From Halomonas sp. (GTDB taxonomy: Bacteria > Pseudomonadota > Gammaproteobacteria > Pseudomonadales > Halomonadaceae), in contig JAIVHM010000157.1 of the NCBI GenBank assembly GCA_020201095.1, positions 1 through 35,354 of the forward strand: DNA of 35,354 bases, read 5' to 3'. This document shows positions 5,693 through 31,357 of this stretch, piece after piece. How positions within the stretch are numbered: position 1 is the stretch's first letter; each line of letters opens with the position of its first letter. The position numbers and the translations under genes were made by a program. Under the pieces are notes generated by a model. It saw only the letters and a program-made list of their open reading frames with translations. It searched no databases and was not told where the DNA came from.

Positions 5693-5716
5693 CCACCGCT
5701 ATGCAATCAGCGGTGG
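5693..5716. terminator. Possible hairpin between convergent lipA and lipB
   Basis: A perfect 8-bp inverted repeat (CCACCGCT / AGCGGTGG, 8-nt loop) spans the lipB stop codon and lies 15 nt beyond the lipA stop. It has no clear T tract in either direction, so it may be a weak bidirectional terminator or an RNA 3'-end stabiliser. Confidence 0.4.
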
Positions 5717-6200
5717 CGGTTGCACGGCCGTTACCAGCGAACGATTTAACTGGGCGGCCAGCGCCTCAGCCAACTTTTCGCCTACCCGGTGGTCGCTTGG
5801 TAATGCCACGCAATCAGCGAGACGCGTCATCGGCATGCCCACATAGCCACACGGATTGATGTAAGAAAAAGGCGTCAGATCTCCGTCGACATTGAGCGCT
5901 ACCCCGTACACCAAGCTTACCTCGCCGTACATCAAGCAACGGATATAGCACCACCTGGCCAGGGCCATGGTAGGTCACCTGCCCGCCTCGGTCGGTCTGC
6001 ACGACCGGGATATCGCCCGGCATCAACACATGCTCAGGCTTACCGGCCTGGCCCTGGGTAAACACTGGGTCGTGCTCCACCAGCCAGAATTGATCAGGCG
6101 TTTGCGGATCGCGGTGGTCGGTCAACGAACGCATGGCCTGCCAGACTGGCAGATAAGGCCTTCGGCCCAGCACATGCAGCTCGATGGGGGGGGCAGACAT
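5699..6200 (-). pseudogene. lipB: Octanoyl-ACP:protein N-octanoyltransferase, broken by an internal deletion
   Basis: LipB transfers octanoate from ACP to lipoyl domains, the step before LipA. The first frame (5814-6200) has the normal N-terminal half, including [16 protein letters not shown] and [14 protein letters not shown], and reaches KLGVR. The rest of the protein is in another frame (from about 5910 down to 5699): [14 protein letters not shown], then INPCGYVGM with the catalytic cysteine. Compared with E. coli LipB (213 residues), about 50 residues are missing at the junction (about 5901-5915), including the catalytic lysine segment (KICSLGLR in E. coli), and the frame is lost. The start codon overlaps the ybeD stop (TAATG), and a C8 run on the coding strand (6186-6193) follows the start closely. 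It could be a true pseudogene or a sequence/assembly error. Confidence 0.88.
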
Positions 6201-6511
6201 TACACCACCATATGCACAAGGCCAGTGGCTTTCAGCTCGTCAAACAGTTGCTTCAGCTGTTGTTCACCGGTTGCCGTGATCGTGACCCTCACTGATTGAA
6301 AGCGCCCGTTGCGGCTATCGATGACCTGCATCGTCGTTTCGTCAAAGTCGGGCGCGTGTCGAACAATCACCTGGCAAACCCGCGCCGGGAAATCCTCAGT
6401 AGCGTCGCCCACGACTTTTAACGGATAGGGGCACGGAAAGCTGATCTTGGGTGCCTCTTGTTCCGCTGGCTGTCGCAGATCGCGAAAGCTGTTTTGACCA
6501 CCTTTTGACAT
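6200..6511 (-). CDS. ybeD: DUF493 family protein YbeD
   Basis: A small conserved protein (103 residues from the preferred start) of the DUF493/YbeD family, which has an ACT-like fold and sits between dacA and lipB in many gammaproteobacteria. Its molecular role is not settled. The core motif [13 protein letters not shown] and the C-terminal VHMVV match the family. The frame could begin at 6541, but the start at 6511 (MSKGGQNSF) fits the family length and has GTGAG upstream; the extra 10 residues look non-native. It lies 58 nt after dacA and overlaps lipB by one base (TAATG), as in the E. coli dacA-ybeD-lipB arrangement. Confidence 0.9.
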
Positions 6512-6569
6512 AACTAACTCACTGGTTTGGCAAATGATCATCTGACTTAGGCAGCAAAATAACCGGCAA

Positions 6570-7769
6570 TCAGTCAGTAAAATTACCGATCAGATTAGAG
6601 AAAAAACGCCGCACCTGATCAAGTAACTGCTTGAAAAAGCCGCCTTCTTCAGCGTCTTCTAATGCCACCAACTGGCGCTCACCGACAACGTTGTCGCCCA
6701 TGTGGATCTCAAGCGTACCGACTTCGTCGCCGACGCTCAGCGGCGCCTGGAGTTCAGTATCGAGATTCAAACGCGCGCGTAGCTCGTCATTACGGTTACG
6801 CGGTAACGTCATGGTGACGTCTTCATCCACCCCAACACGAATCTCATTGATATCACCACCCCATACACGTGGCGTGGCAAGCACGGCACCACGCTCGTAC
6901 AAATTCATGGTTTCAAAAAACCGGAAGCCGTAGCTGAGCAGTTTTTGAGTTTCCTGGGCACGAGCCTCTTCAGAGTCGGTTCCCATGACCACGGAAATCA
7001 ACCGCATATCGTCTCGCTTAGCCGAAGAAACCAGCCCGTAACCTGCCTCGGACGTCCAACCGGTTTTCAGGCCATCGACCGATGGGTCACGCCACAACAG
7101 GCGGTTTCGATTAGGCTGGTCAATACCGCCAAAGACAAAGTTACGCTCGGAATAGATCGCGTAATGCTCGGGATAGTCATTGATGATGTGTTGGGTCAGA
7201 AGCGCCATGTCGTGGGCGGACGAATAATGATTTTCGCCCGGCAGCCCCGTCGGGTTTTCGAAATTGGAGTTCTTCATACCCAGTCGCGCAGCATGCTGAT
7301 TCATCAAGTCGGCAAACGGCGCTTCGCCCCCCGCCAAATGCTCAGCCATTGCCACGCTTGCATCGTTGCCAGATACGATAATGATACCGTGCAGCAAATC
7401 TTCGACGGCGATCTGGTCACCGACTTCAACAAACATTTTCGAGCCGCCTGTGCGCCACGCTTTTTCGCTGATGCTCACTTCGTCATCAAGTGAAATACTG
7501 CCCCGATCCAGCTCACGCTCTACCAGATAGGCGGTCATTAACTTGGTCAAACTGGCCGGTGGCAGGCGCTCATCAGCATTCTGCTCGGCCAGAATTTCAC
7601 CGCTATCTGCGTCCATCAGTATCCACGACTTAGCCGCTAACTGCGGCGGTGCCGGGATGATCGTTTGCGGCTGGGGTACCTCTTGGGCACTGACGGCCGG
7701 GGTAACCACCATTGCCGCCGCCAAAACACACAGCCGAGCAGAAGAAAATAAAGCGTTAAACACATTCAT
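6570..7769 (-). CDS. dacA: D-alanyl-D-alanine carboxypeptidase (PBP5/6 type)
   Basis: Periplasmic, membrane-tethered penicillin-binding protein that removes the terminal D-Ala from peptidoglycan stem peptides. The 399 residues begin with a signal peptide, likely cleaved near AVSA-QE (residue 28). The active-site motifs are SLTK (Ser73, Lys76), SGN (133-135) and KTG (235-237). A C-terminal beta domain follows, and the last ~22 residues (FFKQLLDQVRRFFSNLIGNF) form the amphipathic helix that anchors PBP5 to the inner membrane. Length matches E. coli DacA (403). A strong terminator-like hairpin lies between rlpA and this gene, so dacA-ybeD-lipB may be partly uncoupled from the upstream cluster. 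No damage is seen. Confidence 0.96.
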   Translation of the reverse strand: MNVFNALFSSARLCVLAAAMVVTPAVSAQEVPQPQTIIPAPPQLAAKSWILMDADSGEILAEQNADERLPPASLTKLMTAYLVERELDRGSISLDDEVSISEKAWRTGGSKMFVEVGDQIAVEDLLHGIIIVSGNDASVAMAEHLAGGEAPFADLMNQHAARLGMKNSNFENPTGLPGENHYSSAHDMALLTQHIINDYPEHYAIYSERNFVFGGIDQPNRNRLLWRDPSVDGLKTGWTSEAGYGLVSSAKRDDMRLISVVMGTDSEEARAQETQKLLSYGFRFFETMNLYERGAVLATPRVWGGDINEIRVGVDEDVTMTLPRNRNDELRARLNLDTELQAPLSVGDEVGTLEIHMGDNVVGERQLVALEDAEEGGFFKQLLDQVRRFFSNLIGNFTD

Positions 7770-7790
7770 TATGACAGTCTCATTAACTTG

Positions 7791-7816
7791 AAAAAAACGC
7801 GCTCATCAGTGCGCGT
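7791..7816 (-). terminator. Rho-independent terminator after rlpA
   Basis: On the minus strand the stem ACGCGC/GCGCGT (8-nt loop) is followed at once by a run of seven T. It sits 21 nt after the rlpA stop and about 21 nt before the dacA ATG, leaving almost no room for a separate dacA promoter downstream of it. This is compatible with partial read-through or attenuation within the cluster. Confidence 0.75.
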
Positions 7817-7837
7817 CAATATAATAACGGTGGGCAA

Positions 7838-8806
7838 TTATCGCACGATAAACACATCGGTAAAGCCCGCATCGTGTAACGCTTTGCGAGCGTCGCTCTC
7901 TTGATCAACGGCGACGGGGCCCACTTGTACCCGATAAACCTCATCATCTTCGTCGACACGCACATCGTGAGGTATCGCATCGCTTAGCTGTGATCGCATT
8001 TGCTGAGCTGTTTGGGAACTACCCAAGGCGGCAATTTGTAAATAAATGGTCTCGTCACTTGGCTCACTAGGCGGATTATCGCTGTTGCGCTCAGCTGCTT
8101 CCGAGGATGTCGCCGTCATTTTTTCAGGCGCCGCGTTAGGCTCAGAATTGCCACCCGAACGCTGAGCCTGCCAGCGTTTGGCGTCTATCGCTTCAACTTT
8201 CACCTCGCCGGTACCTTCATCCAGAATGTCCAGCCTGGCCGCCGCCGCGTACGACAGGTCTATTTCACGATCGCTGTGGAAAGGGCCTCGGTCATTAACC
8301 CTGACAATCACCGACTGTCCATTGCGTTCGTTGGTTACCCGGGCATAGGAGGGAAGCGGTAGCGAACGGTGCGCCGCCGACATTTTGTACATGTCGTAGA
8401 TTTCACCGTTTGATGTTGCGTAACCGTGAAACTTTTCACCGTACCAAGAGGCACGACCTTGATTGCTGTACCCATCGGCACTCGGCAGGACATTATAAGT
8501 TTTGCCCCACACTTCGTAAGTCGACCGATTACCGGCCCTGGAACGGGGCTCGTCGCGGGGCTCGGCATCAGGTACGTCGGACACATCCGGTGGCTCAAGA
8601 GGATAGGCATCACCGCTCATGGCGTAACGTCCGCCTGCGGTATCACGGTCGTTACCGTCCTTGCTCCGCTCAGCACTGTCCTCTGTGCGGTTTTGTGCAG
8701 ATTGGCTAGAGCCACTCGTGGGTTCGTGACTCGCACAGCCGCTGACCACCGAGAGCACCAAGGCCGCCCATCCTAATCGCTGACAGACTTTAATGTAATG
8801 CATCAT
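7838..8806 (-). CDS. rlpA: Septal-ring lytic transglycosylase RlpA, lipoprotein with SPOR domain
   Basis: Outer-membrane lipoprotein that, in characterised homologues such as P. aeruginosa, cleaves denuded peptidoglycan at the septum. The 322-residue product starts with a lipoprotein signal, lipobox VVSG-Cys near residue 24. A Ser/Asp/Glu-rich linker follows, then the double-psi beta-barrel domain containing GRASWYGEKFHGYATSNGE and RVNDRGPF. A C-terminal SPOR domain (about 250-322, IYLQIAALGSS to DVFIVR) should direct it to septal glycan. Its ATG overlaps the stop of the second mltB frame (ATGA), suggesting translational coupling in the ancestral operon. A second ATG immediately after the first is an equally possible start. 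Confidence 0.94.
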   Translation of the reverse strand: MMHYIKVCQRLGWAALVLSVVSGCASHEPTSGSSQSAQNRTEDSAERSKDGNDRDTAGGRYAMSGDAYPLEPPDVSDVPDAEPRDEPRSRAGNRSTYEVWGKTYNVLPSADGYSNQGRASWYGEKFHGYATSNGEIYDMYKMSAAHRSLPLPSYARVTNERNGQSVIVRVNDRGPFHSDREIDLSYAAAARLDILDEGTGEVKVEAIDAKRWQAQRSGGNSEPNAAPEKMTATSSEAAERNSDNPPSEPSDETIYLQIAALGSSQTAQQMRSQLSDAIPHDVRVDEDDEVYRVQVGPVAVDQESDARKALHDAGFTDVFIVR

Positions 8807-9839
8807 GCGTCATCCTCGCCCTGTGGCCTAGTTGTCCCCACCTCTTGTGCCTCAGTTGCTATGGCTTCCGCCAGCTCGGCAACGGCCATGGCATAAAGAT
8901 GACTATGATTGTAGCGGGTAATCACGTAAAAATTATGAACGCCAAGTCGATACGTCAGTTGCCCATCGTTCAAGGTCAGCACCAGGGGCGTGACCAAGGC
9001 ATTTTCATCTAACGCCCTACTTGCTCCAACGCTTCCATTGACGTGTCGGGGGGTGTTATTTGATTTACGGTCAGGTCAGATGGCGCTGTATCAGGCCCAT
9101 CCGCCGGGTAATAGATAGCGCCTCCTTCCTGCCAGCCGTGCTCCGCGAAATAGTTGGCAACGCTACCAATCGCGTCAACCGGATTGTTCCATAGATCGCG
9201 CAGCCCATCGTCGTCAAAATCAACGGCATAGGCTTGATAGCTTGTCGGAATAAACTGTGGGTAGCCCATTGCTCCGGCGTAGGAGCCCTTTAGGCTTGAA
9301 GGATCAACTTCCTGGTCGTGAGCAATCTGCAGGAAAGCGCCCAGTTCACGGGTAAAAAAATCACCTCGTGTGGGGTGTTCAAACGCCAATGTCGCCAAGG
9401 AATCCAGTACTGGATGCTCACCTCGGTGTCGACCATAGTAAGTTTCTACACCGATAATAGCGGTTATGATATCGTGAGGAACACCGTACACGTCTTCTGC
9501 TTCGGCCAGCGCATCCTGGTGGGCTTGCTGGAACTCAACGCCTTCTTCAATACGCTGCTGGGTGATAAAAATATCGCGGTACTCATGCCACTCAAGGTGA
9601 CGCTCGGCAGCCCCATCCATGGCATCCAGCACTGACTGACGCAACTTAGCCTGACGCAACTGTCGGTTTAACCAGTCGCTCGGCAGCCCTTCGCCCTCAA
9701 GACTTTTCACCAGCGCGCGAGCGCCTGAGTGATGCTCGGGGTCAAAATCCTGTGCGTCCTCGGCCATCAGAGGGAACGCTAAGCCGCCGACCATAATGCC
9801 CACCATGCCGACACCTGCCATCCGTTTGGCTCTACTCAT
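8803..9839 (-). pseudogene. mltB: Lytic murein transglycosylase B, frameshifted near the C-terminus
   Basis: MltB cleaves the MurNAc-GlcNAc bond to form 1,6-anhydro ends. The first frame (9009-9839, 276 residues) has a signal or anchor segment, the catalytic glutamate in IIGVETYYG (Glu132), and GSYAGAMGYPQFIPTSY. It ends prematurely after ALEQVGR. The adjacent frame continues the same family with LDENALVTPLVL, then the conserved YRLGVHNFYVITRYNHSHLYAMAV block, and ends at 8803, overlapping rlpA. Restoring one base near 9011-9018, beside a GGG run, would give one product of about 344 residues, the normal family length. The lost segment belongs to the conserved SLT_2 fold, so a truncated enzyme would probably be impaired. 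A one-base sequencing error is a real alternative. Confidence 0.9.
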
Positions 9840-9879
9840 TCACTCACTGCTCCTGTGGGATGCGCTGTATTTTCTATCG

Positions 9880-10911
9880 CTAGCGTGGCAGAAGCCGACG
9901 ATGCGCGTGAATCGACATGAGAATACCGAAACCCACCAACAAGGTCACGCTTGAGGTGCCGCCGTAGCTGACCAGAGGCAAAGGCACACCGACGACCGGT
10001 AATATTCCGCTCACCATACCAATATTGACAAATACATAGATAAAAAACGTCAGAATAATACTGCCCGCGACCAAGCGACCAAAGGTATTTTGTGACTCGC
10101 TTGCCAGCCAGAGGCCACGGCTCACAATCAGCAGGTACAGTAGAATCAATATCACCATGCCGATCAGGCCAACTTCTTCACCCCAACCCGAGCCCAATGG
10201 GTCGGTATCCGGGTTCAAAAAGGTCAGTATGCGCTGGCGCTGATAGTTATGCAGGTTCATCCACAGCAGGGGGAAACCAGACGCCAGTAACACACATACA
10301 AGCCCGATTAATCGCCACGACAAACCGGCCAATAGCACAACGATAATTGCCGCGCTGGCAACCAGCAACGACGTACCTAAATCGGGCTGGGCCGCAATCA
10401 ACGCCACCGGCAGACCAATAATTAGCGCGCACACCACAATGTCTTTAAGCTTAGGCGGCAGTTCACAACGATAGAGATACGCCGCCACCATCATGGGAAC
10501 GGCCAGCTTCATCATTTCCGAGGGCTGGAAGCGAATCACACCCGGTATTACCAACCAGCGCTGGGCACCCATGCCAACATCACCGACCAGCTCTACGGCT
10601 ACCAGCATCAGCACGCCAATGCCATAAGCCACGGGCGCCCAGCGCAGAAAGAAGATCGGTGAAAACTGGGCCACTATCAGCATTGCCATCAGCGCAACAC
10701 CAAACCGAATAGCTTGGGCGATGACCACATTCATGCTCTGGCCAGAGGCACTGTAGATCACCAGCAGTCCACTGCCCATTAACACCAGCAACAAGCCCAG
10801 CAGCCAGGGGTCCAGATGAATGCGCTCCCAGATACTGCGACGCTTGGGGATACCACCACTGGTGCGCACCGGACGACCGCGTAGGGATTGAGTTATTGCC
10901 TGCCATGGCAT
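9880..10911 (-). CDS. mrdB: RodA, SEDS peptidoglycan polymerase, lacking the catalytic loop
   Basis: RodA is the SEDS glycosyltransferase of the elongasome and works with PBP2. The 343-residue product has the expected membrane segments and family blocks: GAQRWL, RFQPSE, AAQPDLGTS, HNYQRQR and the C-terminal GVPLPLVSYGGTS. It is shorter than E. coli RodA (370) despite a longer N-terminus. At residues 243/244 (about 10182) the sequence jumps from NPDTDPLGSGW to GEEVGLIGM. Homologues have about 43 residues here (the IIQSKxAIGSGG, GTQSQLEFLPE and HTDF motifs), including the catalytic aspartate. The loss is in frame, so the ORF stays open but the protein should be inactive. It starts two bases after the mrdA stop, in the standard mrdA-mrdB order. 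Family identity is certain; whether the deletion is real is not. Confidence 0.9.
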   Translation of the reverse strand: MPWQAITQSLRGRPVRTSGGIPKRRSIWERIHLDPWLLGLLLVLMGSGLLVIYSASGQSMNVVIAQAIRFGVALMAMLIVAQFSPIFFLRWAPVAYGIGVLMLVAVELVGDVGMGAQRWLVIPGVIRFQPSEMMKLAVPMMVAAYLYRCELPPKLKDIVVCALIIGLPVALIAAQPDLGTSLLVASAAIIVVLLAGLSWRLIGLVCVLLASGFPLLWMNLHNYQRQRILTFLNPDTDPLGSGWGEEVGLIGMVILILLYLLIVSRGLWLASESQNTFGRLVAGSIILTFFIYVFVNIGMVSGILPVVGVPLPLVSYGGTSSVTLLVGFGILMSIHAHRRLLPR

Positions 10912-10913
10912 GA

Positions 10914-12821
10914 TCAGTTGCCCTCCACGTTACTGGTATCGGTTTCAAGGGTCTCGCGAACCTCGTCGACTTCAGGTGCTTCGTCGTCCAGCAACCATTC
11001 ATCGGTCATCGCCCTGGCTAGGTGAGCCGCGTGGGTGCTGCCGCCACCGGCATTTTCAACGATGACCGCTACGGCAATCTCAGGGTCTTCGATGGGCGCA
11101 AATGCCATGAACAGCGCATGGTCACGCAGGCGCTCCTCCAACTCGTCGGCATCGTAGCGTTGGTCTTGCCCAAGCGAGAACACCTGGGCTGTTCCTGACT
11201 TGCCACCCATGCGGTATTCAAGGCCTTCACCGGTTCGACGAGCAGTACCTTCACTGCCACTTATCACCTTTTCCATACCACTGAACACGCTGTCCCACCA
11301 ATCGTCCTGGGCCAGATTGATATCGTCCGGCGTGCCTGGTAAGTCGCGCTCCAGCGATGTATCACCAATTTTGCGCGCCATACGTGGCTTAACCCACTGA
11401 CCACGGTTAGCCAACGTGGCGGTCGCTGTGGCCAGCTGCAGTGGAGTGATCTGCCAGTAACCCTGGCCGATGCCCACGGATAATGTCTCACCTGGATACC
11501 AGGACTGATCAAAGCGTTCGCGTTTCCATTCACGCGACGGCATCAAGCCAGAGCTTTCACTTTGCACATCATGTGCGACGCGCCGGCCAAACCCAAAATT
11601 ACTCATTTGCTCGTGGAGGCTATCAATACCCATTTCGTGGGCGAGCGAATAATAAAAAGTATTGTTGGACACCGCCAGCGACCGCTCAAGGTCGACTCGC
11701 CCATGCCCCCAGCGCAACCAGTTGCGATAACGCCTAGAATCATTGGGCAGTTGATAATAGCCAGGGTCATTAATGGTGGTATTCGGTGTAATGGCCCCAT
11801 CGACAAGCCCGCCTAACGCCAGAAAGGGTTTGATCGTCGAGCCGGGAGGATAATGACCGCGAATCGCACGGTTGAAGAGCGGCAGGTTGAGATTTTCCTG
11901 GAGCTCTTGATAGGAGGCCCTATCGATACCGGTGACGAACTGATTACTGTCAAAACCGGGCGTTGATACCATCGCAAGGATCTCACCACTATCTGGCTCG
12001 AGGGCGACGATAGATCCACGACGACCATCCATCAACTCGTAGGCCAACATTTGTAACGACTTATCCAGCGTTAACGTTAAATCCTTGCCGGGGACCGGAT
12101 CAGTGCGCCCAAGCTCCCGCAGTACGCGCCCACGTGCGTTGGTTTCGACTTTGCGTAAGCCCGCTTGACCATGCAAATCATCCTCGTAAAAACGCTCTAC
12201 GCCGGTTTTACCGATAAAGTGCGTCCCGGCGTAGCGGCTAGCGTCGAGGTTCTCTACCTCTTCAGCATTAATGCGCCCCACAAAGCCCAGGGCGTGGGCC
12301 ATTATCTCGGCATCTGGATAGTAACGCAGCAGTTGAGCTTCCACTTCGACCCCAGGTAACCGGTGGCGATTAATCGCCAACTGAGCAATTTGCTCTTCAC
12401 TGAGATCGCTGGCCAGCAGAACCGGCTGAAAGGGACGCTGCCATTGCTGGGAGCGTTCATAGAAGGTGCTGGTTTCTTCGTCGTTAAGTTCAAGAAGCTC
12501 GACCAAAAGCGCCAGCGTTTCATCGACGTTTTCCGAGCGCTCGCGAACCAGTGTCAGGTTGTAGGTGGGCCGGTTTTCCGCCAGCAATACGCCGTTGCGG
12601 TCGTATATCAACCCACGGTTCGGCGGGAGGGGCTCAACGCGCACGCGGTTTTTTTCAGAGCGCGTGCTGTAAACATCGTGCTGAACAACCTGCAGATAGG
12701 CCAAACGACCCACCATCAGGCTGGTCAAAGCCACCACGACCACAAGGGCCAATAGCGCTCTGGCACGAAAAATCCGCAGTTCTTGCTCGGTGTTCTTAAG
12801 CTTGTCGGAGCGCGGTGGCAT
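10914..12821 (-). CDS. mrdA: Penicillin-binding protein 2 (elongasome transpeptidase)
   Basis: Cross-links peptidoglycan during cell elongation in partnership with RodA. The 635-residue length matches E. coli PBP2 (633). A single membrane anchor (about 21-42) is followed by the dimerisation/pedestal region with EPLPPNRGLIYDRNG, then the transpeptidase domain. Its motifs are STIK (Ser328, Lys331), SNN in LAVSNNTFYY, and KSGT in MGGKSGTAQV. The C-terminal ~30 residues are acidic, in keeping with a halophile. It is followed at once by mrdB and preceded by rlmH with a 54-nt gap. No damage is visible, which contrasts with the lesion in its partner RodA. Confidence 0.97.
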   Translation of the reverse strand: MPPRSDKLKNTEQELRIFRARALLALVVVVALTSLMVGRLAYLQVVQHDVYSTRSEKNRVRVEPLPPNRGLIYDRNGVLLAENRPTYNLTLVRERSENVDETLALLVELLELNDEETSTFYERSQQWQRPFQPVLLASDLSEEQIAQLAINRHRLPGVEVEAQLLRYYPDAEIMAHALGFVGRINAEEVENLDASRYAGTHFIGKTGVERFYEDDLHGQAGLRKVETNARGRVLRELGRTDPVPGKDLTLTLDKSLQMLAYELMDGRRGSIVALEPDSGEILAMVSTPGFDSNQFVTGIDRASYQELQENLNLPLFNRAIRGHYPPGSTIKPFLALGGLVDGAITPNTTINDPGYYQLPNDSRRYRNWLRWGHGRVDLERSLAVSNNTFYYSLAHEMGIDSLHEQMSNFGFGRRVAHDVQSESSGLMPSREWKRERFDQSWYPGETLSVGIGQGYWQITPLQLATATATLANRGQWVKPRMARKIGDTSLERDLPGTPDDINLAQDDWWDSVFSGMEKVISGSEGTARRTGEGLEYRMGGKSGTAQVFSLGQDQRYDADELEERLRDHALFMAFAPIEDPEIAVAVIVENAGGGSTHAAHLARAMTDEWLLDDEAPEVDEVRETLETDTSNVEGN

Positions 12822-12875
12822 AGCGATGGCTAACTCTCATTCAATCGATGACGGGCATCCAGCTGCCTGAATAAC

Positions 12876-13343
12876 TCAACGATGGTAGGGATGCCCCACC
12901 AGAAGCGTCCAGGCGCGATAAAGCTGCTCGGCGAGCATAATACGCACCAACGGATGAGGTAAGGTGAGCGGCGATAACGACCAACGCTGCTGGGCCATCG
13001 CCGACACAGTAGGGTCAAGCCCATCGGGACCGCCAACCAGCAGCACCACATCTTGGCCCTGCAGCCGCCAACCATCGGCCTGTTGGGCAAGCTGCTCGGT
13101 GGTCCAGGCATGGCCATTGACCTCCAGTGCGACCACATGCTCGTTGCCGCGCAGCTTACTACGAATACGTTCCGCCTCTTGCTCCCGCGCCCGGGCAATA
13201 TCGGCATTTTTGCCACGTTGCCCAAGCGCCACTTCTTCGATATCCAGGCTGAACTCTTTCGGCAGGCGCTTGCGGTACGTCTCAACGCCCTCTTCCACCC
13301 AGGCGGGCATCTTGCTACCCACCGCCAACAGGCGGATTTTCAT
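12876..13343 (-). CDS. rlmH: 23S rRNA pseudouridine(1915) N3-methyltransferase RlmH
   Basis: SPOUT-class methyltransferase that modifies pseudouridine 1915 of 23S rRNA on the assembled 70S ribosome, using SAM. The product is 155 residues, exactly the E. coli length. It begins [19 protein letters not shown] and carries the trefoil-knot SAM-binding motifs LLVGGPDGL and the C-terminal [18 protein letters not shown] ending HPYHR. It overlaps rsfS by four bases (ATGA), indicating translational coupling of two ribosome-associated genes. No anomalies. Confidence 0.97.
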
Positions 13344-13720: not shown

Positions 13721-13775
13721 ATCTCCTAACGATAACCCCGTGTAATGCGCTTTTTGAAGCGGGTCATTGTAACGA

Positions 13776-16792: not shown

Positions 16793-17721
16793 CCCAGCCT
16801 CATTTCCCACGCCGGTTGGTAACGCTTGCGTACATGGCCAGTATTGCTTTGATGGGAGGCTATGCTGTTTGGCTATATGCCATGGGCGATTATCGTGACC
16901 TTGTAGCCCCTAGCTTCATGGTTCTGATCCTGCTGGCCGCCTTTTTGCTTCATCTTGGCCAGGATATGCGTGCTCACCTGCCAAGGCTGGTACTGTTGGC
17001 TTGTACTTACACAAGCGTCATCGCCGCGTTTTATTACCAACCCGACACTCCGCTGGTCTGGATCGGCATGCCCATGACCGCCGCTTTCCTGCTACTACCG
17101 CTGATAGGCGCCATAACGTTGCATCTTGCATTGACCCCACTGTGGTGGCTGATGCCTGCGCTGGAACAAGCATCCCCCACCCTGGTGATGGGTTACGTGG
17201 CGCTTGGGCTTTTGCTCGCACTGCCGCGCTGGGAGCATGCACGACGTCGCGCACTACTGCGCGCCACCGACCCCAATGACAGCGAGTGCGACGCCTACCA
17301 CATCGACACGCTAAAAGAGCGTTTGCACAGTGAATACCAGCGTGCCGATATGCTCAACCAGCGCCTGGCCGTACTGGTCATCCACTTACCCCAGCGCGAC
17401 ATGGCGGAAGAACAGTTCGGCGCACGCGCCGCCCAGGCATTGCTGGGCGCCTTGTGTACCGAAGTATATAACTGCTGCCGCGACCACGACCTATTAGGGC
17501 GAGCCGACCATGCCTCGTTCTGGCTAGTATTACCCGATACCAGCGAAAGCGGTGCGCTACTGGTTCGGGATCGACTTCAGCGCGCGCTGTCCCGACGTGT
17601 ACTGGTCGAAACCGGACAGTGCGAGGCACGCATTGCCGCCTGCCTGCCATGCCCCAGAGAAAATTTTGAACACTATCTGCAGCGCCTGGAAAATCGGGGC
17701 AACACACTGGCGACTCCCTGA
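16789..17721 (+). CDS. Membrane protein with a degenerate GGDEF domain (second of pair)
   Basis: A 310-residue protein with about six membrane segments in residues 10-146 and a cytoplasmic GGDEF-like domain from residue 160. TDPNDSECDAYHIDTLKERL (160-179) parallels the TDPLTGLxNRRxFxxxL start of GGDEF domains. LAVLVIHLPQ (193-202) parallels LAVLLIDID. GRADHASFWLVLPDT (237-251) parallels RxGGDEFxxLLPDT, with ADHAS replacing GGDEF. The RxxD inhibitory site is also not seen. It therefore looks like an inactive cyclase, perhaps a c-di-GMP or GTP sensor, or a structural partner of the preceding gene. The stop is 40 nt from the convergent lysE-type gene, with no clear terminator between them. Confidence 0.7.
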   Translation: MTQPHFPRRLVTLAYMASIALMGGYAVWLYAMGDYRDLVAPSFMVLILLAAFLLHLGQDMRAHLPRLVLLACTYTSVIAAFYYQPDTPLVWIGMPMTAAFLLLPLIGAITLHLALTPLWWLMPALEQASPTLVMGYVALGLLLALPRWEHARRRALLRATDPNDSECDAYHIDTLKERLHSEYQRADMLNQRLAVLVIHLPQRDMAEEQFGARAAQALLGALCTEVYNCCRDHDLLGRADHASFWLVLPDTSESGALLVRDRLQRALSRRVLVETGQCEARIAACLPCPRENFEHYLQRLENRGNTLATP

Positions 17722-17761
17722 CGGACAAACGGCCCTTATTGAATTATTGTTGGCTCAGACC

Positions 17762-18385
17762 TTACCCAAGTGCCAGCCAAATGCCGACGCCGATCATCAA
17801 GGTTCCCGCAATACGGTTCAGCAGGCGGACATTGCCACTTTTACCCAGCACACGACGCAATGTTTTTCCACCGGTGGCATAGACCAGCATGCTGGCAAAT
17901 TCGATGGTCAATATCACCGCAATCAGCAAGACCAGCTGGTGACTGAGAGGTCGGCTGCTATCCAGGAAAGGCGGCAACAGCACCATGAAAAACGCCCAGC
18001 CTTTGGGGTTGGCAACAGCGGTTAAAAATCCCTGGAGTGCCAATTGCCAGCGCCCTGCCGGTGGGCCTGCCTCAAGCTCGTTGGGTATCGCCATGCGCCC
18101 ACGAGAACGCCACATCATGATGCCGATGTAGGCCAGGTACGCCCCGCCCACCCATTTAAATGCCATAAACAACCCTGGCTGGCGGAGCATCAGCGCCGCT
18201 ACTCCCACGCCCGCTGCTGCGGCTACCAGCCCAACACCGACTAATTCACCGATCATCATCCAGAGCGCGCGCTTCACACCCTGGGTCATCCCCAGAACCA
18301 TCGCCAGCGTCATGCACATACCCGGCGTTAACGACACCAGCAAAAACGTCGGCACAAACACCGAGAGCGTGGCCCAAGACATCAT
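17762..18385 (-). CDS. LysE/RhtB-family amino-acid exporter
   Basis: A 207-residue inner-membrane protein of the LysE/RhtB translocator family. The N-terminal block VFVPTFLLVSLTPGMCMTLAMVLGMTQG is the diagnostic LysE signature, followed by about five further membrane helices and the family motif FLTAVANPKGWAFFM. These carriers export amino acids (for example lysine, homoserine, threonine, leucine); the substrate cannot be read from the sequence. The start is three bases after the ubiX stop, so it is probably the last gene of an mpl-ubiX-lysE operon. ATG codons at 18385 and 18382 are both possible. Confidence 0.9.
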   Translation of the reverse strand: MMSWATLSVFVPTFLLVSLTPGMCMTLAMVLGMTQGVKRALWMMIGELVGVGLVAAAAGVGVAALMLRQPGLFMAFKWVGGAYLAYIGIMMWRSRGRMAIPNELEAGPPAGRWQLALQGFLTAVANPKGWAFFMVLLPPFLDSSRPLSHQLVLLIAVILTIEFASMLVYATGGKTLRRVLGKSGNVRLLNRIAGTLMIGVGIWLALG

Positions 18386-18388
18386 TGA

Positions 18389-20433: not shown

Positions 20434-20645
20434 CGCTACGCCTCTAAACAACCCCAAAACAGCTCGCAAGCCTAGCACGCCAGGCCTTATGGCTCACCTG
20501 TCTTAAACGGTCACATTGACGCAAGGCAAGCATCGTCCAGTGACAACGTCACTCAGATATTGCACGATGCCCGATCAGATAACATGCCTACGCTTCTCGC
20601 TGCTTTAATCGTGGCGACAAGCACGAATACCACGAGGGTTACTTA

Positions 20646-21032
20646 ATGCGCATATTGATACGCTATTTTTTCCGCGGCCTCCGCCTGGTGCTTGCACCTA
20701 TCATGCTGATATCCGAGAAGCTCTCGACACCCCAGTCGGTTAAGCGCTCACCTGAGGAACAAGCCAAGGTAGATCAAGCTTGCAACAGCCTTGCGCTGTA
20801 TCAGTTCCGCACCTGCCCGTTTTGTATCAAGGTGCGCAAGGAGATGGCCCGCCTCGGGCTTACGATCGAAAAACGTGACGCACAGTTGGACCCTGACCAC
20901 AAAAAAGCACTGCAGGAAGGTGGCGGCCGCGTCAAAGTGCCGTGCTTGAAAATTACCCATGATGATGGACGCGAAGAATGGCTATATGAATCTGATGAGA
21001 TCAATCGCTGGCTACATCAGCGCTTTGCTTAA
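20646..21032 (+). CDS. Membrane-anchored glutaredoxin-like protein
   Basis: A 128-residue protein. Residues 1-24 form a basic-hydrophobic N-terminal segment (IRYFFRGLRLVLAPIMLI), probably a membrane anchor with the rest in the cytoplasm. Residues 48-128 form a glutaredoxin/GST-N-type thioredoxin fold with a CPFC active site (Cys57, Cys60). A VKVPCL motif supplies the cis-proline, and a C-terminal LYESDEINRWL helix follows, as in glutathione-binding domains. The likely role is thiol-disulfide exchange with glutathione; the partner is unknown. GAGGG precedes the ATG by 7 nt. It stands alone, divergent from mpl and upstream of the ABC operon. Confidence 0.85.
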   Translation: MRILIRYFFRGLRLVLAPIMLISEKLSTPQSVKRSPEEQAKVDQACNSLALYQFRTCPFCIKVRKEMARLGLTIEKRDAQLDPDHKKALQEGGGRVKVPCLKITHDDGREEWLYESDEINRWLHQRFA

Positions 21033-21079
21033 CTACTCCTTTCGTCGCAACTGCCCTTCGTAACGCTCGCCACAGCCTA

Positions 21080-21102
21080 CCTCATTCATATGCTGAATGA
21101 GG
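21080..21102. repeat. Perfect 9-bp inverted repeat after the glutaredoxin-like gene
   Basis: CCTCATTCA and TGAATGAGG flank a 5-nt loop (TATGC), about 48 nt after the gene's stop. It could end the upstream transcript, although only a weak T-rich stretch follows, or act as an operator for the downstream ABC operon. Confidence 0.5.
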
Positions 21103-21177
21103 TCAGTCATTATTTCGATTGTAGAGAACCATTGCCTCTCTCTATGTTAGATACATAGCTTTCGAGCTGACCGTGTC

Positions 21178-21240
21178 TGCTTTGCTGCTCTGAGCATGTC
21201 TTCGTGACGTCTTCATTCCCAAGAAAAGAGCAGCAAAGCA
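21178..21240 (+). repeat. Perfect 14-bp inverted repeat in the leader of the ABC operon
   Basis: TGCTTTGCTGCTCT (21178-21191) is exactly complementary to AGAGCAGCAAAGCA (21227-21240), separated by 35 nt. The second arm ends 30 nt before the ATG of the binding-protein gene. In RNA it would form a strong stem-loop just upstream of the ribosome site (CAGGGAACG); in DNA it could be a looping operator. No T tract follows, so it is not a normal terminator. Confidence 0.65.
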
Positions 21241-21270
21241 AATAAACAATATCCTTTACAGGGAACGATA

Positions 21271-22854
21271 ATGACGTTTAAAAAAACGCTACTGGCTTCT
21301 GTGATTGGTGCCACATTAACGGGCACCGCTCTCCTACCCTCGATCGCAAGCGCTGAAACCCTGCGCATTGGTTACTCGGCCGACCCGGAAACGCTGGATA
21401 TCCACGAGCAGCTGTCGGGTGGCGTGCTGCGCTTTTCGCACATGGCTTTTGACCCGCTGGTTCGTTGGACTAAAGATTTCGAGTTCGAGCCGCGCCTGGC
21501 GACCGAATGGGAGCAGGTGGATGAAACCACCATGCGTATGACGCTGCGTGAGGGTGTTAAATTCCATTCCGGCAACGAATTTACCGCCGACGATGTGGTC
21601 TGGACCATCGAACGTCTCAAGAAAAGCCCCGACTACCGCGGCATTTTCGAACCAGTTGAAAGCGCCGAAGCCATTGACGATACGACCGTCGAGATCAAGA
21701 CCAGCGAGCCTTACCCGCTGCTGCTGAACATTGCCACCTATATCTTCCCGATGGACAGCGAGTTCTATACCGGTGAAACCGAGGATGGCGATGACAAGGG
21801 CGAAATCGAAAAATCTGGCGACTCCTATGCCTCGCGCAATCTATCGGGCACGGGGCCGTTCGTTATCACTGACCGTCGCCAAGGGGTTCGGGTTGAATTT
21901 GAGCGTTTTGAAGATTACTGGGACACCGAAACGGAAGGTAATGTCTCACGTATCGAGCTAACGCCGATTTCTGAAAATGCCTCACGCGTGGCTGCCCTGC
22001 TGTCCGGGGACGTGGACTTTATTGATGCGGTGCCGCCCAACGACCTGGATCGCGTTCGCGATGCCGATGATGTCAATCTGGTAGAGGTAGACGGCACCCG
22101 TATTATTGGCTTCCAGATGAACGAAGAGCGCGTTGAAGCCTTCCAGGATGCCCGTGTTCGCCAGGCGGTCGATTTGGCCATTAATCAGGAAGGCATTGCC
22201 GACCGTTTGATGCGCGGTTTCGCGAACCCGGCGGGTCAGTTCTCGCCAGAGGGTTACTCAGGCCACAACCCTGACTTGACACCGCGCTACGATGTCGAGC
22301 GTGCCAAAGAGCTGATGGCTGAAGCCGGTTACGAGGAAGGCTTCGAGATCGAAATGATCGCGCCTAACAATCGCTACGTTAACGACGCTCAAATCGCCCA
22401 AGCCGTCTCCAATATGCTGGCGCGCATTAATATCGATGTTGATTTGCGCACCATGCCGCTTGCCCAGTACTGGCCCGAGTACGATGAGCGCGAGTCTGAT
22501 ATGGCAATGATCGGCTGGCACGCTGACACCGAAGACACCGCTAATTTCTTCCAGTACCTGTCTTTCTGCATTGATGAAGAAACCGGTGCCGGTCAGTATA
22601 ACTACGGCAACTACTGCAACGAAGAAATTGACCAGTTAGTTACCGAGGCTGACAGCGAAACCGATCAGGAAAAACGTAACGAAATGCTGCGTGAAGCCGA
22701 AGCCATGCTCTACGAAGATGTCGGCTACATCACACTGCACTGGCAGAACCTTGCTTACGCTGCCAGCGAAGGGGTCGAAATTGAACCCGTCGTCAATGCG
22801 CTCGACTTCCCCTACCTCGGCGACCTTGTCATCAACCGTGAAGATGACGAATAA
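21271..22854 (+). CDS. Peptide ABC transporter substrate-binding protein (SBP family 5)
   Basis: Periplasmic binding protein of the DppA/OppA family, 527 residues. A signal peptide is likely cut after SIASA (residue 28). Family features include the start ETLRIGYSADPETLDIHEQ, MTLREGVKFHSGNEFTADDVVWTIERL, and the repeated lobes ending in LHWQNLAYAA. The mature protein is very rich in Asp and Glu, as expected for a periplasmic protein of a halophile. It is the first gene of an importer operon, with a 15-bp hairpin between it and the permease genes, which often allows binding protein to be made in excess. The nearby pepQ points to dipeptides or proline peptides as ligands, but this is inference. 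Confidence 0.92.
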   Translation: MTFKKTLLASVIGATLTGTALLPSIASAETLRIGYSADPETLDIHEQLSGGVLRFSHMAFDPLVRWTKDFEFEPRLATEWEQVDETTMRMTLREGVKFHSGNEFTADDVVWTIERLKKSPDYRGIFEPVESAEAIDDTTVEIKTSEPYPLLLNIATYIFPMDSEFYTGETEDGDDKGEIEKSGDSYASRNLSGTGPFVITDRRQGVRVEFERFEDYWDTETEGNVSRIELTPISENASRVAALLSGDVDFIDAVPPNDLDRVRDADDVNLVEVDGTRIIGFQMNEERVEAFQDARVRQAVDLAINQEGIADRLMRGFANPAGQFSPEGYSGHNPDLTPRYDVERAKELMAEAGYEEGFEIEMIAPNNRYVNDAQIAQAVSNMLARINIDVDLRTMPLAQYWPEYDERESDMAMIGWHADTEDTANFFQYLSFCIDEETGAGQYNYGNYCNEEIDQLVTEADSETDQEKRNEMLREAEAMLYEDVGYITLHWQNLAYAASEGVEIEPVVNALDFPYLGDLVINREDDE

Positions 22855-22918
22855 AACGCAATAAATAAGGTATTGGTAAGCATTGTTTTCATAACCGTCT
22901 TTACCTTATCGCAAGGAC

Positions 22919-22953
22919 GCTTCGCTCCCTGGGTCAGCCCCAGGGAGCGAAGC
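22919..22953 (+). repeat. 15-bp perfect stem-loop between binding-protein and permease genes
   Basis: GCTTCGCTCCCTGGG pairs perfectly with CCCAGGGAGCGAAGC across a 5-nt loop (TCAGC), 65 nt after the binding-protein stop. Only a short T/A stretch follows, so it is better read as an intercistronic stabilising or partial-termination hairpin than a full terminator. A smaller inverted repeat (ATAAGGTA/TACCTTAT, 22865-22909) precedes it. Confidence 0.7.
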
Positions 22954-23027
22954 CTGTTATTAAAAGATTCGCGACAACCTCCTTGCCGACTCCCACGTTG
23001 AACCCTTTCATATAGGTGGCGTACGCC

Positions 23028-23862
23028 ATGATCGCCTTTTTAATCAAACGGCTAATGCACGCGGTATTGGTGATGTTTATCATCAGCCTGCTAGCCTTCG
23101 CTATTCAGGACAACCTGGGTGACCCCATCCAACAGATGGTTGGGCAGTCTGTACCGGAAAGCGAACGCGAAGAGCTTCGCGAACGCTTTGGCCTGAACGA
23201 TCCGTTCCTGGTTCAATACACTCGTTTTGCGAAAAATGCCCTGCAGGGCGACTTTGGCTATTCGTATTTTTACCGGGAGCCTGCGCTGGACGTCATTGCA
23301 CGCCACCTACCCGCTACCCTGGAGCTGGTTTTCGCGTCTACGTTAATCATCGTCGTGTTTTCCGTCCCCATAGGGGTATATAGCGCCATCAAGCCCCGCT
23401 CGCTGATTTCGCGGTTTTTCATGGGCATATCGATCGTGGGTATTTCCATTCCGGTTTTTTTAACCGCTATTGTGCATCATGCTGCCACTGTTTATCCGCT
23501 TAATCCGCGCGGAAATGATGGAAGTATTGCAGTCTGACTACGTCAAATACGCTCGTGCAAAAGGCATTTCCATGCGCCGGGTGTATTTTGTTCACGCGCT
23601 TAAAAACACCATGTTGCCGGTCATTACCGTGGGCGGCGTGCAAATTGGCACTATGGTGGCTTACACCATCCTGACCGAAACGGTCTTTCAATGGCCAGGG
23701 ATGGGCTTGATGTTCCTGGACGCGATCAACCGCGCCGACATTCCCCTGATCATTTCTTACTTAATGATTGTCGGGGTCATTTTCGTGGTCACCAACACTA
23801 TCGTCGATTTGATCTACGGCTTGGTGAACCCCACTGTCAAATTAACCGGGAAGCCCGCATGA
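23028..23862 (+). pseudogene. Peptide ABC transporter permease (DppB type), broken by an internal deletion
   Basis: First inner-membrane permease of the importer. The start ATG at 23028 (MIAFLIKRLMHAVLVMF) has AGGTGG upstream; a GTG at 23016 is in frame but less likely. The first frame runs through DNLGDPIQQMVGQS, DPFLVQYTRFAKNALQGDFGYS and GISIPVFLTAI, then goes out of frame at about 23470-23480 and stops at 23537. The second frame resumes the same family at IMLPLFIRLIRAEMMEV, includes the EAA-like loop VKYARAKGISMRRVYFVHALKNTMLP, and ends at 23862, overlapping the next permease (ATGA). Comparison with DppB-type permeases suggests about 50 residues missing between the parts, with loss of frame. 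Without a working first permease the importer should be dead, so this needs checking against reads. Confidence 0.88.
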
Positions 23863-24800
23863 CAACGACTACGCACCCCGTTCCTGGCCGCTGGCAGCGC
23901 TTCCGCGACTCCTATCTTTGGTACAGTTTCAAGCGCGATTACACCGCGCAGCTGTGCTTCGCGATATTCGTCTGTCTGGTGTTTGCCGCTTTTTCGGCAC
24001 CGCTTCTTGCCCCCACTGATCCTTATGACTTGAGCCAGATTGATATTCTGGCCTCCGAGTTGCCGCCCTTCTGGATTAACGGCGCCGACGAGAACTACAC
24101 CCTGGGCACCGATGCCCAGGGACGCGACCTGTTATCGGTGATTCTTTACGGCACGCGGGTATCCCTGCTGATCGGCTTCGGCGCCGTTGCACTGCAAGCC
24201 CTCTTGGGGGTCACCTTTGGCCTGATGGCCGGTTATCTGGGGGGCCGCGTGGATGCCTTTTTGATGCGCTTGGCCGACATCCAACTGTCGTTTTCGACGC
24301 TGATGGTTGCCATCGTGGTCGGCGCCGTGGTTAAGGCCTCATTTGGCAGCTCGTTTTACAGCAGCTACGCCGTCTTGATGCTGGTGTTGATTATCGGCCT
24401 CGCGGAATGGCCACAGTACGCGCGTACCGTGCGGGCATCGGTGCTCGCCGAGAAGAACAAAGAGTACGTCGATGCCGCCCGGGTGATGGGGTTACGCAGC
24501 AAACGCATCATGTTCCGCCACGTACTGCCCAACACGCTATCACCGATCTTCGTGATTTCGACGGTGCAAATCGCCAACGCGATTATCTCCGAGGCCGCGC
24601 TTTCGTTTCTGGGCCTTGGCATGCCCGAAACACACCCTTCGCTGGGCTCGCTGATCAAGTCTGGGTTTGACTACATCCAATCCGGCTCCTGGTGGATCAC
24701 CATGATCCCCGGCGCCGTGCTGGTGGTGCTGGTGCTTTCCATCAACCTGCTCGGCGACTGGCTACGTGACGTTATGAACCCGCGACTCTACAAAGGCTGA
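23859..24800 (+). CDS. Peptide ABC transporter permease (DppC type)
   Basis: Second inner-membrane permease, 313 residues. The start at 23859 overlaps the preceding gene's stop (ATGA); a longer open frame upstream is only a shadow of the first permease. It has the DppC-type N-terminal helix (LCFAIFVCLVFAAFSAPLLAP), the periplasmic loop with LGTDAQGRDLLSVILYGTRVSL, and five further helices. The cytoplasmic EAA loop reads EYVDAARVMGLRSKRIMFRHVLPN and contacts the ATPases. It ends LLGDWLRDVMNPRLYKG, typical of the family. It looks intact. Confidence 0.93.
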   Translation: MTTTTHPVPGRWQRFRDSYLWYSFKRDYTAQLCFAIFVCLVFAAFSAPLLAPTDPYDLSQIDILASELPPFWINGADENYTLGTDAQGRDLLSVILYGTRVSLLIGFGAVALQALLGVTFGLMAGYLGGRVDAFLMRLADIQLSFSTLMVAIVVGAVVKASFGSSFYSSYAVLMLVLIIGLAEWPQYARTVRASVLAEKNKEYVDAARVMGLRSKRIMFRHVLPNTLSPIFVISTVQIANAIISEAALSFLGLGMPETHPSLGSLIKSGFDYIQSGSWWITMIPGAVLVVLVLSINLLGDWLRDVMNPRLYKG

Positions 24801-24807
24801 AGACACC

Positions 24808-25824
24808 ATGGCACTACTGGAAGTGACAAATTTAGACGTGCGCTTCGGCCTGCGCCAGGGCGAAGTGCGCGCTTTGCGCGACGTCAATTTTACCCTCGAA
24901 CGCGGGGAGCGGTTAGGCATTGTCGGTGAATCCGGTGCGGGTAAATCCGTGGCCGCTTTTTCGCTGCTCAACCTGATTGCCAAACCGGGTTTCATCGCCG
25001 GCGGCAGCATCAGTTTTGAGGGTAAAACGCTCAACACCATGTCCGAACGTGGTCTGCGCAAAGTGCGCGGCAACCGCATCTCGATGATTTTTCAGGACCC
25101 AATGATGACGTTGAACCCGGTCCTGTCCATCGGCCAGCAAATGATTGAATGCCTCAAGGCCCACCGGCGTATTTCGTCTAGAGAAGCCCGCGCCATTTCG
25201 CTGGACAAACTTCGCCAGGTACAGATTCCTTCGCCGGAAACCCGCCTGGATCAGTATCCCCACGAGCTTTCTGGCGGCATGCGCCAACGCGTGATCATCG
25301 CCATCGCGCTGCTGCTGGACCCGGACATCATCATTGCCGACGAGCCGACTACCGCGTTGGACGTGACCATTCAGGCGGAAATCATGGCGTTGCTGCTGGA
25401 GCTATGCGAGCAGCACAACGTCGGCTTGATTCTGATCACCCACGACCTGGGGGTGGTCAGCCAGGTCACCCAGCGCATGCTGGTGATGTACGCCGGTCGC
25501 GTGATTGAACAAGGGTCTACGCGCGAGATCATCAACGACCCGCAGCACCCTTACACTCAAGGCTTAATCAACGCGCTGCCGCAAATGGCGACGCCCGGCG
25601 AAAAGCTCAATCAGATCCGCGGCACCATGCCGTCGCTTTCGAACCTGCCCAGCGGCTGCGCGTTTCACCCGCGCTGTAACTTCATCAATCGCGCCGATGG
25701 AAAGCCGCGCCCAGCCTGCACCGAGCAGGTTCCGGGCTTTGTCGAGTCCGGCAACTGCCGCGTGGCATGCCACATGGTCGCTGAAATGCTTGAAGACCGC
25801 CGCTTGAAGGAGGAATCCTCATGA
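24808..25824 (+). CDS. Peptide ABC transporter ATP-binding protein (DppD/OppD type)
   Basis: Cytoplasmic ATPase of the importer, 338 residues. It has Walker A GESGAGKS, the signature LSGGMRQRV, Walker [13 protein letters not shown] and the switch histidine in ITHDLG. The C-terminal oligopeptide-transporter extension contains the [16 protein letters not shown] cysteine motif found in DppD/DppF proteins, some of which bind an iron-sulfur cluster. It starts 7 nt after the second permease and overlaps the next ATPase by four bases (ATGA), so the two ATPases are co-translated. Confidence 0.95.
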
Positions 25825-26888
25825 CTGCCCCCTCTGAGGCCATAGCGGCCAACCCGACGCCGACCCAGAATGAAAAAAGTGACGACTCGCTGCTGCAAAT
25901 TCGCGGCTTGAAAAAACGCTTTTCATTGTCGGGCGATTTTCTTGAACAGCTACGCTTCAAGGGTGGCAAGCTGGTTCGTCATCGGGAATACGTACATGCC
26001 ATCAATGGCGTTGATCTCGATATCAAACGCGGCGAAGCGCTGTGCGTGGTAGGTGAATCCGGCTGTGGCAAATCCACTGTCGCGCGCACGGTCATGGGGT
26101 TGATTACTCCTTCCGAAGGTGAAATCCGCTACGGCGGCGAACGTATCGACAACCTGAGCTCGCGGCAGCTACTGCCCTACCGCAAGCGCATGCAGATGAT
26201 TTTCCAAAATCCCTATGCGTCGCTCAACCCGCGCATGACCATCCAGCAGACGCTGGAAGAACCGCTCCGGCTGCATCATCCGGATTGGAATCGCGAGAAA
26301 ATCGAAGCCAAAGTCTACGATGTCATGCAATCGGTAGGCATTGACCCGGACTGGGGCAAGCGCTTCGGCCATGAGTTTTCGGGTGGCCAACGTCAGCGTA
26401 TCGCGATTGCCCGGGCACTGGCCGTCGACCCTGAGTTTATTGTTGCCGATGAGCCAATTTCCGCGCTGGACGTCTCCATTCAAGCGCAGGTACTCAACCT
26501 GCTGATGGAGGCCCAGCACGAGCGCAACCTGACCTACCTGTTCATTACCCACGACCTGGCAGTCGTCGAACATTTCGGCACCCGCGTCGCCGTCATGTAC
26601 CTGGGCACGGTATGTGAAATCGCCACCACGGCGACGCTGTTTGAGAAGCCACGCCACCCCTACACTCAGGCGTTGCTGTCGGCGATTCCACGGCTGGAAG
26701 ATGACCGCCCCCAGCACATCCGCCTTTCAGGCGAAGTGCCCACGCCGGTGAATCTGCCCAGCGGCTGCGTGTTCCATGGCCGCTGCCCTCATGCCAATGC
26801 GCGCTGCAAACAAGAAATTCCTGTCCTGCAGACACAAGATGACGGCACGCGCGTTGCGTGCCACGCTGTTGAAGAAGGCCGCCTATGA
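25821..26888 (+). CDS. Peptide ABC transporter ATP-binding protein (DppF/OppF type)
   Basis: Second ATPase of the importer, 355 residues. It has Walker A GESGCGKS, the Q-loop region MIFQNPYASLNPRMTIQQTL, the signature FSGGQRQRI, Walker B FIVADEPISALD and ITHDLA. The C-terminal PVNLPSGCVFHGRCPHA cysteine cluster matches the DppF/OppF extension. An insertion near residues 45-55 (EQLRFKGGKLVRHREYVHAING) is typical of the F-type subunit. The stop lies 46 nt before the lysR-type gene on the same strand, so the operon may continue into it. Confidence 0.95.
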   Translation: MTAPSEAIAANPTPTQNEKSDDSLLQIRGLKKRFSLSGDFLEQLRFKGGKLVRHREYVHAINGVDLDIKRGEALCVVGESGCGKSTVARTVMGLITPSEGEIRYGGERIDNLSSRQLLPYRKRMQMIFQNPYASLNPRMTIQQTLEEPLRLHHPDWNREKIEAKVYDVMQSVGIDPDWGKRFGHEFSGGQRQRIAIARALAVDPEFIVADEPISALDVSIQAQVLNLLMEAQHERNLTYLFITHDLAVVEHFGTRVAVMYLGTVCEIATTATLFEKPRHPYTQALLSAIPRLEDDRPQHIRLSGEVPTPVNLPSGCVFHGRCPHANARCKQEIPVLQTQDDGTRVACHAVEEGRL

Positions 26889-26934
26889 GGCGGTCATTGG
26901 ACATACGATGGTGCCCTTCATGGAGAGGTAAGGC

Positions 26935-27726
26935 ATGGAAATTCGCTGGCTAGAAGACTTTATCGCCCTGGCCAGAACGCGACACTTCTCACGCGCTGCC
27001 GATGAACAGAACGTCACTCAACCCACGTTTTCCCGGCGTATCAAGCTGCTGGAAGAGGAAATGGGCGTGACGTTGGTCAACCGGCAAACACTGCCGCTTT
27101 CTTTAACTCCCGCGGGAGACGAGTTCTTGCTGCTATGCGAGCAGGTGACTGACCGCGTACGTCTGACGCGATACCGCGTTCAGGAAATCAGTGCAGGACA
27201 AAAGCGACGCATCATGGTGGCCGCCCCACAAAGCCTGCTGGGGCAGTTTCTGCCCGAGTGGCTGGCAACGACCGGCTGGCAAGCGCGCGTACAGCCTTAC
27301 CTGCGCGCGACTGGCTGGGTAGCCAGCGATTACTTTCAGGCCCTCCAGCACGGCGAATGTGACCTGGCGATCTGCTACTGGCCGATGGGTCGCTGTGATC
27401 TGGACATCGACACCAGTTCCTGCACCTACCGCGTCATCGGTCATGAACGACTGATCCCAGTGACCGGTGTCGACGACCACTCGGCGCCGAGAGCGTTATT
27501 ACCGGGCAGCCGCCAGCAACCACTTCCCTGGCTCGCCTACCCGCAACGGGGGCTGCTGGGCTCGGCAGTGACCGCTCACCTGGCGCGATTACCCCAGAGC
27601 CTGGTCCGAGCAGGCGACAGCCGCTGGGACGTTCCCATGGAGCTTCGCCTGTACCGCCACCAGAGCCAGCACCACGGTGAGTTGGACGCTTTCTGGAGTG
27701 AACTCCCACACTTTCGCACTTATTAG
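26935..27726 (+). CDS. LysR-family regulator, shortened by an apparent in-frame deletion
   Basis: Residues 1-60 are a clear LysR winged helix-turn-helix: MEIRWLEDFIALARTRHFSRAADEQNVTQPTFSRRIKLLEEEMGV. The effector domain follows, with CDLAICYW and LAYPQRGLLGSAVTAHLARLPQ. At about residues 218-222 (about 27590-27605) the sequence passes straight to SLVRAGDSRWDVPMELRLYRH, the usual family end. Related regulators have about 40 residues here (the EGLxxMxxEGxGxxxLPES region), and the total of 263 residues is below the normal 290-305. The frame is kept, so a protein would be made, but the effector domain lacks a core strand and helix. It sits between the ABC importer and pepQ, 9 nt before the latter, and probably regulates this operon. 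Confidence 0.85.
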   Translation: MEIRWLEDFIALARTRHFSRAADEQNVTQPTFSRRIKLLEEEMGVTLVNRQTLPLSLTPAGDEFLLLCEQVTDRVRLTRYRVQEISAGQKRRIMVAAPQSLLGQFLPEWLATTGWQARVQPYLRATGWVASDYFQALQHGECDLAICYWPMGRCDLDIDTSSCTYRVIGHERLIPVTGVDDHSAPRALLPGSRQQPLPWLAYPQRGLLGSAVTAHLARLPQSLVRAGDSRWDVPMELRLYRHQSQHHGELDAFWSELPHFRTY

Positions 27727-30108: not shown

Positions 30109-30193
30109 CTTTTAAAAAAACATCAGTAAAACAATGCCTTAATGTAATTTCGCTTGATTTCTATTAATTCTGCTCGCACTGCAGCAAATAAAC

Positions 30194-31342: not shown

Positions 31343-31357
31343 GGGTTACCCTTCCTG

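Follow-up and report, generated by a model that had tools for sequence, protein, structure and literature searches.

The window analysed here, a stretch of 35,354 nucleotides, spans all of contig C28 in a draft genome (G000) from the Halomonas/Vreelandella group. Four of its genes, namely lipB, rodA (mrdB), a gene for a DppB-type permease (dppB) and a gene for a LysR-family regulator (lysR), each lack an internal block of 123–215 base pairs (bp). As judged from sequence comparison, these four large losses are most probably scaffold gaps of the draft assembly and not deletions in the organism (probability about 0.93), and the genes of the bacterium are probably intact. The finding is almost certainly a warning about assembly rather than biology.

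Four genes of the window lack internal blocks

The draft contains 3,039,165 bases in 284 contigs and is 89.93% complete and 2.17% contaminated. The best named matches belong to Vreelandella (V.) and Halomonas. The RodA of the window is closest to that of a same-genus genome, G013 (93% identity, residues 1–244), followed by G014 (87%), which was taken as V. arcis. G013 is the nearest relative compared and was used as the reference for loss sizes. With blastn, window bases 2 to 30141 align with a syntenic stretch of 40 kb of G013, and the main pieces have 84.7–92.7% identity. The alignment is interrupted at 5905–5907, 10183, 23473/23475 and 27598–27600, where lipB lacks 167, rodA 126, dppB 215 and lysR 123 bases of the G013 sequence. 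The affected genes and their junctions are as follows.

5699..6203, minus strand: lipB (lipoyl/octanoyl transferase), split; it retains residues 1–100 and 155–223 of the G013 protein, which has 223 residues (tblastn)
5905..5908, minus strand: unmarked join in lipB; 167 bp absent compared with G013, frame-shifting
9880..10911, minus strand: rodA, 343 residues; open frames of 387–492 residues in 18 other same-genus genomes
10183..10184, minus strand: unmarked join in rodA/mrdB; 126 bp (42 codons) missing, with the frame kept
23016..23862, plus strand: DppB-type permease gene, split; it retains residues 1–153 and 223–353 of the G013 protein, which has 353 residues
23473..23476, plus strand: unmarked join in the DppB-type permease gene; 215 bp missing, with a shift of frame
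26935..27726, plus strand: LysR-family regulator, 263 residues; open frames of 303–364 residues in the same-genus genomes with a match
27598..27601, plus strand: unmarked join in the LysR gene; 123 bp (41 codons) missing, with the frame kept

All four junctions are blunt within about 3 bases, and their best splits match at 66–75 of 80 bases. The intact G013 copies fit the Pfam families expected from the gene names: LplA-B_cat for lipB, FTSW_RODA_SPOVE for rodA, BPD_transp_1 for dppB, and HTH_1 with LysR_substrate for lysR. The interruptions were also observed with other relatives. The G014 alignment is interrupted at the same four places as that of G013. The G005 alignment is interrupted at these places or close to them, with breaks that are less sharp for lipB and lysR. 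The G015 alignment, which does not reach dppB, is interrupted at or around three.

When the G013 copies of the four missing blocks were searched against the whole draft, none of them (0/4) matched anywhere, and relocation of the blocks to another part of the draft was rejected, although an empty result of this search carries no weight by itself. In a local blastn control against the window only, all eight flanks of equal length were matched (E 5.5e-32 or better) and none of the four blocks was. At lipB, for example, the G013 flanks match the window at 90–92% identity, and the missing block is absent from it.

An earlier reading of the window, made from the sequence only, had described four large internal losses of 120–155 bp. 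The four breaks are there, but this range was too narrow. Its estimates in codons were good for lipB, rodA and lysR and too low for dppB, where it gave about 50 and about 72 are lost. The frames were as claimed, with lipB and dppB (167 and 215 bp) shifted and rodA and LysR (126 and 123 bp) kept. The alignment to complete relatives that it had proposed yielded the exact losses of 167, 126, 215 and 123 bp, with edges free of short direct repeats.

Relatives retain the missing blocks

The retention of the blocks was counted as the presence of the block residues themselves (tblastn), over loci with a match to the gene. The loci comprised 80 from one search and eight stretches from another, with one V. 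arcis contig in both sets. The block residues were present in 80/80 loci for lipB, 84/84 for rodA, 3/3 for dppB and 4/4 for lysR. The same shorter genes in close relatives, which the sequence-only reading had named as a sign of inheritance, were thus not found among these loci. Since the relatives checked retain the blocks, an inherited deletion is unsupported.

For dppB and lysR, the G013 proteins were also compared with 41 same-genus genomes including G000. G013 DppB found 40 matches at 1e-80, of which 39 were near end-to-end; the sole remaining match was G000, and G015 had no match. The match of G018 was only 46% identical and is probably another permease. LysR likewise found 40 matches at 1e-70, 39 of them near end-to-end; the other one was again G000, and G018 had no match. 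G013, the source of the queries, is counted among the 39 genomes for both proteins.

In V. azerica TBZ9, lipB (L048, 14972–15609) is complete in length but lies in two overlapping frames, and its mltB (L048, 11296–12245) is likewise split over two frames; that draft is likely to contain small indels. A cut of this lipB at the same place as in the window was considered and rejected, as the gene is complete with a small frameshift.

The same lesion occurs on other contigs of the draft

A further 40 stretches of the draft were examined, 38 chosen by contig number and two from contig C226. Together with the window they amount to 380,793 bases. The comparison covered 1.24 Mb of the 3.85 Mb of G013, and alignment pieces of 80% identity or less, or overlapping a better piece by at least 20 bases, were dropped before breaks were counted. 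Of the 41 stretches, 14 aligned (128,895 bases); the other 27 presumably lie mostly in parts of G013 outside the compared 1.24 Mb.

Twelve of the 20 alignment breaks are unmarked losses of 91–275 bp at which the aligned pieces lie −3 to +3 bases apart. They fall on six of the 14 aligned stretches: four in the window, two each in L122, L130 and L179, and one each in L126 and L177. Eleven each fall within one G013 reading frame of 150 codons or more, and the 275-bp loss lies outside such frames. Three of the 12 are in frame (multiples of three), near the one third expected of cuts made without regard to frame. Eight affected genes have Pfam fits: lipB, rodA, dppB, lysR, and genes for a tail-specific protease, a class-V aminotransferase, MoeA (moeA) and a GGDEF protein. 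The aminotransferase gene, which we take to be a serC homologue from its resemblance, loses 187 bp. At all 12 unmarked joins the best split against G013 is fixed within 0–3 bases, and no short direct repeats were found at the junction edges. Collapse at repeats was rejected, because the junctions share at most 0–3 bases.

The remaining breaks were set aside. A 103-bp break in L126, with 16 unlike draft bases against 119, would be counted under a looser rule; a second break in L126 is marked by N. The breaks in L173 (494 bp) and L177 (136 bp) have hundreds or thousands of unaligned bases on both sides. The break in L168 (1999 bp) is close to the contig end and beyond the size range; this near-blunt absence of 1,999 bp compared with G013 (3980–3983) is either a real difference or a misjoin. 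Three breaks are net gains in the draft, located in the window (22832–23009), L127 and L122. The one in the window has 176 unaligned bases versus 125 in G013 (+51). It lies between two reading frames, of which one ends at 22854 and the other starts at 23016, and by eye an inverted repeat seems to be inside it.

Marked gaps of the draft are similarly too short

Five runs of N, with lengths of 16, 136, 25, 82 and 9, were found in the 380,793 bases, and the draft was therefore scaffolded. Four of the five could be measured. Their gap lengths in the draft versus G013 are 17 versus 234, 136 versus 214, 32 versus 167 and 82 versus 305, giving shortfalls of 217, 78, 135 and 223 bp (mean 163). Against G014 the second to fourth shortfalls are much the same (80, 135 and 223), and G005 also gives 135 for the third. 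The shortfalls are similar in size to the unmarked losses (mean 163, n = 4, versus mean 170, n = 12; Mann-Whitney p = 0.95). An N-marked gap also interrupts a gene, presumably a miaB-like one.

Relatives aligned with the same reference lack such losses

As a control, G014, G005, V. subterranea, HL-48 and CUBES01 were aligned with G013 over the region of the window (116,101 aligned bases). At the rates of the draft, 11 to 15 losses would be expected there (about 15 at the window's own rate). No near-blunt losses of 80–300 bp, either between or within aligned pieces, were observed in these five relatives. At their breaks, the side of the relative retains 59 to 1,490 bases, and the only gaps of at least 20 bases inside aligned pieces are one 44-bp loss and one 35-bp gain. 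The window is in part closer to G013 than the control relatives are, so that more, not fewer, small differences would be expected in the latter.

Scaffolding with underestimated gaps as the probable cause

Because the losses are near-blunt, frame-blind, of one size class, absent from the relatives checked and found beside similarly short N-gaps, scaffolding with underestimated gaps is the favoured explanation. The contigs would have ended on either side of unassembled stretches, and read pairs would have ordered them while the scaffolder judged the gaps some 80–275 bp too short. A gap with a positive estimate would then be written as a short run of N, and contigs with an estimate of zero or below would be butted end to end and left unmarked. 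That the losses are an artefact is close to shown; from them we infer that read pairs, not single reads, cross the junctions and that the gap estimates were wrong. The systematic assembly error proposed by the sequence-only reading, one that drops blocks of similar size, is borne out by the like losses of 91–275 bp on other contigs beside short N-gaps.

Several points weigh against this explanation. The relatives are all other species, and a recent species-specific loss would be compatible with their intact blocks. The unmarked losses are uneven, with none in L123, L127 and L173, which are aligned stretches of 9.5–14.5 kb. Mismatches to G013 were not enriched beside the junctions (22/240 at 0–9 bases versus 27/240 at 50–59), so error-rich contig ends were not seen. 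The shortfall of the second N-run (78 against G013, 80 against G014) is about 2 against G005, and that of the fourth depends on the reference (223 against G013, 223 against G014, 199 against G005). The flanks of the fifth did not match in order, and with only four runs measured the agreement of the means has little power.

The mltB lesion

A fifth gene of the window, mltB, carries a smaller lesion.

8806..9839, minus strand: mltB (lytic transglycosylase), split over two frames; the G013 copy matches Pfam SLT_2
9015..9026, minus strand: 16-bp net loss in mltB, frame-shifting; junction unclean, origin uncertain

The lesion had been taken for a one-base frameshift. It is in fact a net loss of 16 bp, at about 9016–9024, compared with each of G013, V. 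subterranea, HL-48 and CUBES01. It may represent the same scaffolding error on a small scale. The odds are about even that it is instead a separate lesion, real or due to local sequencing, apart from the four large losses. Its junction is unclean, with 47/60 bases matching at the best split, unlike the four large losses (66–75/80), which favours a separate origin. On the other side, the loss shifts the frame, and the contig that carries it has four large artefacts. In 82/84 loci, a single piece covers mltB over 85% of its length, a threshold that is also reached by the shortened RodA and LysR of the window. The count of block residues is uninformative for mltB, as local alignment leaves every residue covered. 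In addition, a 19-bp loss within another reading frame in L122 indicates that small frame-shifting losses exist elsewhere in the draft.

Other explanations of the large losses

A different artefact, in which mate pairs were concatenated without a gap and assembled as long reads, or N-runs were stripped after assembly, is improbable. The unmarked losses of 91–275 bp (mean 170) would fit an insert length minus two read lengths, and blunt joins fit the removal of N. However, N-runs survive in the draft and are similarly too short, which suggests instead that the gap estimates were wrong.

Slightly less probable still is a genome that is decaying or prone to deletion, in which homology-free end joining made real deletions. 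The losses are plain in the sequence, near-blunt junctions would suit homology-free end joining, and the lack of errors at the edges would suit real deletions as well. In contrast, the losses strike rodA, the serC homologue and lipB without frame preference (3/12 in frame), and these genes are expected to matter to the cell. Similar shortfalls are observed at the N-runs, which are assembly marks. Deletions are not accompanied by near-blunt gains of 80–300 bp, as the three net gains leave 30–131 bases on the G013 side. The signs of genuine deletion, namely sharing by close relatives, direct repeats at the edges and frame kept in needed genes, were looked for at these losses and not found. That the organism really undergoes homology-free deletions of 90–275 bp, about one per 10 kb and blind to frame, and lives with an internally deleted RodA and LysR, is the least probable of all.

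Other differences from relatives

Two further differences were observed outside the affected genes. The G013 stretch stops aligning at about 30141, and G005 keeps aligning to the contig end (window 30141–35354). At 17691–17763, about 70 bases in the window and in G013 stand against about 1.4–1.5 kb in G014, G005, V. subterranea, HL-48 and G015; from the aligned sequences, this length contrast is apparently a real difference in gene content.

Consequences and comparison with known assembly errors

Joins without N leave plausible shorter open frames, such as the RodA of 343 and the LysR of 263 residues, which can pass as real proteins. By extrapolation and not by count, such a draft would contain about 280 unmarked joins (12 in 128,895 bases, scaled to 3,039,165). 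They would be misread as pseudogenes or lineage-specific deletions, and a species reference set containing this genome would inherit them.

The bias of gap estimates has a published basis. As the gap-sizing passages of the Meraculous paper describe, pairs spanning a gap must exceed its length, so that estimates left uncorrected are biased and some gaps come out as negative (PMC3158087). The passages of the BESST paper (PMC4262078) give no direction for the bias. The likeness to our case lies in gaps between contigs ordered by read pairs. In those passages, Meraculous applies a correction for the bias and uses splinting reads to join negative gaps, whereas the contigs of the present draft appear to have been joined with 91–275 bp missing.

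Assembly errors that make intact genes look broken are also known as a source of spurious pseudogenes (PMC11017572). The relevant parts of that paper treat frameshifts and internal stops, and they state that metagenome-assembled genomes were left unassessed. The likeness is that intact genes appear broken through assembly error. The difference is in what is lost: frameshifts and internal stops are treated there, whereas this draft lacks whole blocks, with or without a shift of frame.

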